Source: an uncultured Tateyamaria sp. (lineage in GTDB: Bacteria; Pseudomonadota; Alphaproteobacteria; Rhodobacterales; Rhodobacteraceae). Taken from it: a stretch of 64,000 bases of DNA. This document shows, piece by piece, positions 26,693 to 27,574 of this stretch. The stretch is taken from contig NZ_CANNGP010000001.1 in assembly GCF_947504105.1 (NCBI RefSeq), positions 244,003 to 308,002 on the forward strand. The letters run 5' to 3'. Numbering within the stretch: the stretch's first letter is position 1; every line of letters begins with the position of its first letter. Below the pieces are notes generated by a model, which had not been told where the DNA came from, ran no database searches, and saw only the letters and a list, made by a program, of their open reading frames with translations. Made by a program: the position numbers and the translations under genes.

Positions 26693-27433
26693 TCAATGGT
26701 CGACGAATTCACGCAGGCTTACTTTTCCATCCTTGTCGGCGTCCAAAAACTCAATGGTTTCGGGAACTGTAGCCGCACCTTGCATGCCAATAGCGGCGCG
26801 GCAGTCGGCACTGATCTTGGCTTCGTCCAGACGGTAGGCTGCTACCAACTCCTCGGCGTTGACGTATCCGCTGCCATCCGCGTCAGCCTCAACAAAATCA
26901 CTGGCGCGTTGGCGCTCATGAGCGGCGATGTATTCCTTGAGTGTCGCCACACCATCACCGTTGCTATCATAAAACTCCATATGGCCATCGGCCAACTTTT
27001 CCGGCGTCGCGTTCCACCGCTCCTCCCATTGCGTGCCTTCGCAGGCAGGCGGCACGTCGGTCTCGGCAATGCGATGGGTCATCACGGCGACCAGTTCACT
27101 GCGGTCAAGCTTGCCGTCCCGATTGGTGTCCTTTCCGCGAAAATTGCCTTTGAAGTCTGTCTTGGTCTCCGCCTCAGCACCGACAAGCGATACGGATACC
27201 AGGACTAGTATGGTGATGAAAACCGGCGCGCCGGCGAAAATCAGTCTCGTCCACATTGGGGCCTCCTTGGTAAAAAGTCGAGGCACGGCATCTTCGGCAA
27301 TCAATCTTCGCAGGGCTGCACTCATGGATTCGCCGCGCGCCGCCGCACGGGCAGCGAACGCGGATTTCTCACTCAAGCTCACTCGGACTTCGAGCGTTTC
27401 GGATTTCTTTTCGTGGTGCATGATTGATGGCAT
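26693..27433 (-). CDS. RHH-like N-terminus + TM + periplasmic EF-hand protein
   Basis: N-terminus EVRVSLSEKSAFAARAAARGESMSAALRRLIAED; TM MWTRLIFAGAPVFITILVLVSVSLVGA; EF loops DTNRDGKLDRSE, DSNGDGVATLKE, DADGSGYVNAEE, DADKDGKVSLRE. Confidence 0.75.
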   Translation of the reverse strand: MPSIMHHEKKSETLEVRVSLSEKSAFAARAAARGESMSAALRRLIAEDAVPRLFTKEAPMWTRLIFAGAPVFITILVLVSVSLVGAEAETKTDFKGNFRGKDTNRDGKLDRSELVAVMTHRIAETDVPPACEGTQWEERWNATPEKLADGHMEFYDSNGDGVATLKEYIAAHERQRASDFVEADADGSGYVNAEELVAAYRLDEAKISADCRAAIGMQGAATVPETIEFLDADKDGKVSLREFVDH

Positions 27434-27468: not shown

Positions 27469-27574
27469 TGATGCAACAGATGCTATCATGAGCATGCCGG
27501 GACGCACGGGAATTCGTGTCCGGACAACGCTTTTGCCCCCGCGTTAGCGGCGGTCATCCGCTCAATATGGTTTT

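Follow-up and report, generated by a model that had tools for sequence, protein, structure and literature searches.

A candidate autoregulated ribbon-helix-helix regulator predicted to be tethered to the membrane and to share its reading frame with an exported EF-hand protein

Does a single bacterial reading frame encode a DNA-binding protein anchored in the membrane, a secreted Ca2+-binding protein, or both? The question is raised by a frame of 246 codons on the minus strand (26693-27433) of the 64,000 nucleotides of a Tateyamaria-like genome that we refer to as the window. The initial annotation of its product had described an N-terminus resembling a ribbon-helix-helix (RHH) domain, a transmembrane segment and four EF-hand loops, and had proposed a one-component receptor coupling periplasmic Ca2+ to DNA binding, with an ordinary secreted EF-hand protein starting at M60 as the main alternative. 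Residue numbers in the following refer to this frame, with M1 at 27433, except for the helices of structural models, which are numbered from M5. The features of the gene are:

26693-27421, minus strand: coding sequence of the predicted long form (RHH, transmembrane segment, EF-hands), from codon 5 to the stop codon inclusive; homologues align from M5
27284-27409, minus strand: predicted RHH domain, residues 9-50, assigned from selection, AlphaFold2 and structural matches and operator covariation
27380-27400, minus strand: putative DNA-contact strand ETLEVRV, part of the RHH domain
27395-27397, minus strand: candidate specificity residue T13, covarying with the operator
27262-27268, minus strand: internal Shine-Dalgarno sequence AAGGAGG, with a spacing of 5 nt to the M60 codon, assigned from duplex energy and conservation
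27254-27256, minus strand: internal start codon M60 of a predicted secreted short form; Met conserved in 9/9 Tateyamaria
27182-27244, minus strand: predicted transmembrane segment or hydrophobic core of a signal peptide, residues 64-84, assigned from hydropathy and charge
27095-27130, minus strand: EF-hand loop 1, DTNRDGKLDRSE, residues 102-113, EF-hand_1 match
26933-26968, minus strand: EF-hand loop 2, DSNGDGVATLKE, residues 156-167, EF-hand_1 match
26849-26884, minus strand: EF-hand loop 3, DADGSGYVNAEE, residues 184-195, EF-hand_1 match
26708-26743, minus strand: EF-hand loop 4, DADKDGKVSLRE, residues 231-242, EF-hand_1 match

In the window, the gene is flanked by frames that, when read by eye, resemble an aminotransferase and an acyl-CoA dehydrogenase. 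The adjoining genes vary between lineages, so that the unit is a single gene; the neighbourhood was uninformative.

The pattern of substitutions in nine Tateyamaria species bears on the reading of the N-terminal part. Residues 10-50 have accumulated many synonymous but few amino-acid changes (pS 0.479, pN 0.029, pN/pS 0.06), compared to values of pS 0.738, pN 0.184 and pN/pS 0.25 for the EF-hand part of the same species. As judged from these ratios, the RHH frame is translated and under tighter purifying selection than the EF-hands. Codon 5 (27421) is the most probable start of the long form, in preference to M1 (27433), because residues 1-4 lack conservation and one of the species has a frame that is closed immediately upstream. 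We found no Shine-Dalgarno site at this start in the window (anti-SD energy +0.2 kcal/mol) and the level of the long form may therefore be low. Within the same alignment, codons 47-51 (27281-27295, minus strand; GAA GAT GCC GTG CCT), which are located slightly upstream of the internal ribosome-binding site, exhibit zero synonymous change across the nine species, which suggests an extra constraint on the level of RNA or DNA.

The proposed fold of the N-terminal segment is borne out by structure prediction and profile comparison. An AlphaFold2 model of the RHH part shows a pLDDT of 94-98 over residues 11-40 and helices at positions 16-28 and 33-45 (all counted from M5), with the strand unassigned in this single-chain prediction of a monomer. 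Its matches in Foldseek are almost all RHH proteins, including AtaR, Arc, AmrZ, VapB12, PutA and FitA, with probabilities up to 0.91 and E values of 0.7-8, which are weak owing to the chain length of 50 residues. In the full-length model, the pLDDT is about 75-79 in the RHH helices, below 50 in the linker and the transmembrane segment and above 80 in most of the EF-hand part. A profile of the relatives matches the PDB chains of DinJ (E=8e-5), MazE7 and ParG, and the β-α-α arrangement with its G-x-[ST]-x-S turn, by which we assessed membership of the RHH superfamily, was found. On its own, the segment of the window protein stays below the Pfam cut-offs, with 19.2 bits against 27 for the NikA-like model and 13.6 bits against 20.5 for RHH_1. 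The RHH part often falls below such library cut-offs, and the family is thus easily overlooked in annotation. We also considered the RHH accessory proteins of plasmid relaxosomes (NikA/MbpA/MobC) and rejected this assignment, as the scores are below the cut-offs and the neighbours in the window are not mobilisation genes.

To place the protein in a broader context, we collected its relatives. A genome search with the RHH profile across the class, in which sampling was too thin, found few of them, whereas searches on the level of families around known relatives succeeded and resulted in 255 loci, which were reduced to 111 non-redundant members with strong RHH matches (70% clusters, E<1e-10), the starts of distant members being assigned automatically. 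Full-length relatives are found in 9/20 genomes of the same genus, and matches including the RHH part in 10/397 genomes of the window's own family; hits were obtained in 52/105 genomes of the family of Henriciella and in 63/119 of the family of Maricaulis, a few weak ones being included in the latter two counts. There are a few relatives in sphingomonads and single loci in Roseibium, Sneathiellales, Caulobacteraceae and Kordiimonadales. The link between the RHH segment and the EF-hands, whose conservation the initial annotation had left to a homologue search, is thus maintained in the genus and in other alphaproteobacterial orders. Among the C-terminal parts of 110 scanned members, 73 match EF-hand models and 5 match TonB_C, the remainder being of other kinds. 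A TonB_C-like domain appears to replace the EF-hands behind the RHH-transmembrane cassette in two Henriciella members (L060:3992-4588 and L067:3992-4603). In some genomes of the Maricaulis and Henriciella families, RHH-transmembrane genes lie in tandem side by side (L239, L182, L229, L218, L254), with some of the copies carrying different exported domains. In the window's family, EF-hand proteins that lack the RHH part abound: 295/397 genomes contain some match, few of them with RHH, and the exported domain may have come from such proteins.

The organization of the polypeptide is uniform throughout this set, with a hydrophobic transmembrane segment located behind the RHH domain in 111/111 members. 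The calls of transmembrane segments and signal peptides are based on hydropathy and simple patterns. The N-terminal side of the segment carries the higher net charge in 108/111 members (mean +2.8 on the N side and –0.7 on the C side, 111 members), and 110/111 contain either 0, 2 or 4 cysteines after it. The charge bias and the even cysteine counts provide good support for the N-in/C-out topology that had been predicted from the basic residues of the single protein, with disulfides predicted in the periplasm. An AxA-like motif is found behind the segment in 105/111 members by a loose pattern, and as AEA at residues 86-88 in the window protein; since this resembles a signal-peptidase site, the long form could be cleaved as well. 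In the window protein, the Pfam model EF-hand_1 (E=1e-18) identifies four canonical 12-residue DxDxDG loops, exactly as initially described. Two assignments to known EF-hand families were rejected, namely lanmodulin (34.4 bits in the NCBIfam equivalog model against a cut-off of 135, with the proline absent from loop position 2) and effectors of the XopAW type (54.1 bits in the NCBIfam subfamily model against a cut-off of 120).

If the N-terminal domain binds DNA, its target might be recognizable in conserved non-coding sequence, and a candidate was found in front of the gene itself:

27517-27526, minus strand: TGTCCGGACA, a palindromic candidate operator located between genes in the promoter region, assigned from a footprint in the genus and Roseibium, with an exact match in the window
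27495-27504, minus strand: CGTCCCGGCA, a weaker additional copy of the operator located 22 bp downstream, assigned from aligned sites

In the aligned upstream DNA of nine genes of the genus and of Roseibium, TGTCCGGACA is almost invariant. Within 300 nt and with up to one mismatch, it is found upstream of 74/111 genes, compared to 0.9 in shuffled sequences, at a median distance of 108 nt from the gene start; as a control, the initial 300 nt of coding sequence contained it in 0/111 members. The aligned sites contain a weaker second copy, GCGTCCGGAC, at +22 to +31 and thus 22-23 bp downstream. The 14-mer TGTCCGGACACGAW occurs once each in 8/9 gene-bearing Tateyamaria genomes, always at the RHH-transmembrane-EF-hand gene, whereas the ninth contains a site with one mismatch; among the genomes of the genus that do not contain the gene it is found in 1/11, inside fabH. 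At the stringency used, we found no second target in the gene-bearing Tateyamaria genomes, and autoregulation through the candidate operator at the gene's own promoter would be the simplest reading, although further targets with weaker sites could exist. A search for a regulon with the shorter TGTCCGGACASG in 28 genomes, which extended to other families, returned mostly chance matches in coding sequence and promoters of RHH-transmembrane genes; as there are matches also in genomes devoid of the gene, the short motif alone is unspecific.

RHH proteins read bases by alternating residues of their strand, such as Gln9, Asn11 and Arg13 in Arc. In the family described here, the strand conforms to E-X13-L-E15-V-R17, with R17 being invariant and E15 conserved in at least 90% of 110 members, and the residue at X13 covaries with the center of the operator. 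Thr, Ser, Met, Ala and similar residues are accompanied by CCGG-like centers (51 members), Lys by CATG (13 members) and Arg by ACGG or CCGT (6 members). Three exceptions are of the Arg type with a CCGG center, all of which have Asp in place of E15, and one is a Thr-like member with ACGG. The concordance between X13 and the center is 70/74, compared to a mean of 41 and a maximum of 53 in 10,000 permutations of the labels, a test that ignores relatedness and is partly post hoc, as the classes were named after the first table. On the best tree, calculated from RHH domains after masking of the trait columns, the Lys type arose five times, with two of these events being forced by well-supported branches. 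The operator switched along with the residue in every sampled pairing of Lys and Thr rows; on well-supported branches, only 2 independent Lys/Thr switches can be counted. In several genes of the Arg and Lys types the second operator copy switches with the first. The covariation argues strongly, if indirectly, for the RHH domain itself as the reader of the candidate operator, and in this computational form it substantiates the suggested specific DNA recognition. Such a one-residue code opens DNA binding to swap tests. The Lys-type members L175, L178, L201, L254 and L255 form groups with the operator TGTCATGACA, usually without an internal start, and in several members of this type the exported part does not contain an EF-hand.

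The sequence preceding the transmembrane segment contains the features of a second start. In the window, M60 is preceded by a near-perfect Shine-Dalgarno site with an anti-SD energy of –11.2 kcal/mol; the methionine is kept in 9/9 Tateyamaria, with GAGG located 5 nt upstream in 9/9 and AAGGAGG in 6/9. Throughout the family, a methionine is found between the RHH domain and the transmembrane segment in 78/111 members, where 45.6 would be expected from the background frequency. The mean SD energy at this position is –5.54, compared to –2.58 at 285 other internal methionines (Mann-Whitney p=7e-17) and –3.61 when codons are shuffled synonymously (Wilcoxon p=3e-10). The frequency of purine SD triplets is highest 6-10 nt before it (51% at 8 nt, against 4%), whereas their distribution before control methionines is flat (mostly 4-10%). 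The placement of these triplets at initiation spacing from an over-represented methionine constitutes an initiation signature, and M60 is probably a genuine second start from which a short form is made as well. This product would consist of a signal peptide followed by the EF-hand domain and is predicted to be exported. Among the members with four EF-hands, 32/34 have kept the pre-transmembrane methionine. It is absent from 33/111 members, and an internal ribosome-binding site is present in only 1/18 of the Lys type and 1/10 of the Arg type, but in 53/77 of the rest; dual products are therefore not universal and the long form can occur by itself. Roughly one member in three does not contain the internal methionine or a detected operator.

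Taken together, we consider it likely, with some reservation, that the gene encodes an autoregulated, membrane-tethered one-component regulator of the RHH class, which also makes its own exported domain from an internal start. The long form would combine a cytoplasmic RHH dimer, one transmembrane helix and a periplasmic domain with four EF-hands, and, in the promoter of its gene, it would bind TGTCCGGACA in tandem at a spacing of 22-23 bp. As the operator sits in the likely promoter region, the long form would probably repress its own gene. Judged by the strength of its Shine-Dalgarno site, the short form starting at M60, with its signal peptide and EF-hand domain, would be the main product and be exported. 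Binding of Ca2+, or the quantity of periplasmic domain in the folded state, might alter how the long form dimerises or clusters at the membrane and in turn the occupancy of the operator, with the gene acting as a feedback device that sets how abundant its exported Ca2+-binding product is. A coupling of Ca2+ to DNA binding is plausible; that Ca2+ is the signal we regard as somewhat less likely than not. More tentative still is the generalization to a widespread kind of alphaproteobacterial regulator, in which an RHH-transmembrane cassette with swappable exported domains would repress only its own gene, with the center of the operator set by one strand residue, the same domain freed by an internal start and Ca2+ serving as signal in the members with EF-hands.

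The main rival to this proposal is an autorepressor coupled to export, where the long form would repress until it is inserted into the membrane or cleaved, as when the export machinery is busy or demand is low, the signal being the state of export and the EF-hands mere cargo. The attachment of the cassette and its operator to unrelated exported domains, about two thirds with EF-hands and 5 with TonB_C, fits this idea, as does the loosely defined AxA-like motif found after almost all transmembrane segments, and PutA, itself an RHH protein, is known to switch between DNA and membrane. We nevertheless regard it as rather unlikely: EF-hand domains predominate, and the domain appears to matter in view of the internal methionine retained by nearly all members with four EF-hands. 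As for the translation from M60 only, with a fortuitous RHH reading upstream, the strong and conserved site at M60 and the missing one at codon 5 are what would be expected, but as an account of the sole product it is refuted by the synonymous changes that dominate residues 10-50, and the conservation of the RHH-transmembrane fusion across orders and the covariation of the strand residue with the upstream palindrome make it hardly tenable. M60 has thus been retained as a probable additional start while being dismissed as the only one.

Two further readings concern single elements. SD-like pauses near transmembrane segments have been proposed, and the conserved motif might accordingly aid membrane targeting by slowing translation instead of serving initiation; this appears improbable, since a pause requires neither the spacing of 6-10 nt nor the enrichment of a methionine. 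Finally, TGTCCGGACA could be the site of another regulator or, as its two palindromic copies could pair in RNA, part of a hairpin. This we regard as even less probable, because a strand residue of the RHH domain predicts the center of the element, including the five transitions to the Lys type on the best tree, and the split between Arg members with Glu or Asp at position 15 also follows this center. Moreover, the degenerate second copy would break an RNA stem, and the exact Tateyamaria form is found only at the RHH-transmembrane-EF-hand gene, bar one chance match in coding sequence.

How does this arrangement relate to known systems? The DNA-binding domain of ToxR and CadC is a winged helix-turn-helix. 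With these proteins (PMC5430869, PMC6320335), the family shares a cytoplasmic DNA-binding domain, one transmembrane helix and a periplasmic sensory domain in one chain, a layout that we find in 111/111 members. It differs by containing an RHH domain where a winged helix is not found, by its own promoter being the sole detected target and by the internal start that would make the periplasmic domain separately. The protein thus works like a one-component regulator of the ToxR/CadC type, but, having an RHH domain instead of a winged helix, falls outside that family. PutA is a soluble or peripheral enzyme, and RelB and MobC are soluble. An RHH dimer reading its own operator is common to PutA, Arc/CopG/MetJ, RelB (PMC2812701) and MobC (PMC4175270), and PutA also resembles the present case in the fusion of RHH to a functional domain. 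In PutA, RelB and MobC, however, the RHH domain is not followed by a transmembrane helix and an exported EF-hand domain, whereas here it is predicted to be anchored in the membrane. Regarding the EF-hands, neither CaBP of Caulobacter nor EfhP of Pseudomonas aeruginosa is known to us to contain a DNA-binding domain. Both proteins are similar in their exported or membrane-associated EF-hands and Ca2+-linked gene regulation (PMC13171946, PMC11559002), with CaBP being a signal-peptide protein of 133 residues in a circuit with sigV (PMC13171946), in whose description the word 'ribbon' is absent (PMC13171946). Two isoforms from one frame are also known from Caulobacter, where 75 in-frame alternative starts have been described (PMC4117421); in contrast to these, the internal start would here separate a form that binds DNA and sits in the membrane from one that is secreted, and it is conserved across bacterial families. 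In the open-access literature, we have found no description of the operator sequence, of an RHH protein with a transmembrane segment and an exported sensory domain, or of a bacterial system with the RHH-transmembrane-EF-hand arrangement.

If the proposed mechanism is correct, it would add the RHH class to the transmembrane transcription factors and provide a genetic path that leads directly from Ca2+ in the periplasm, or from the state of export, to transcription. The RHH-transmembrane unit would then constitute a built-in cassette for autoregulation that has become joined to various exported domains in the course of evolution, with sensor and product sharing one reading frame.
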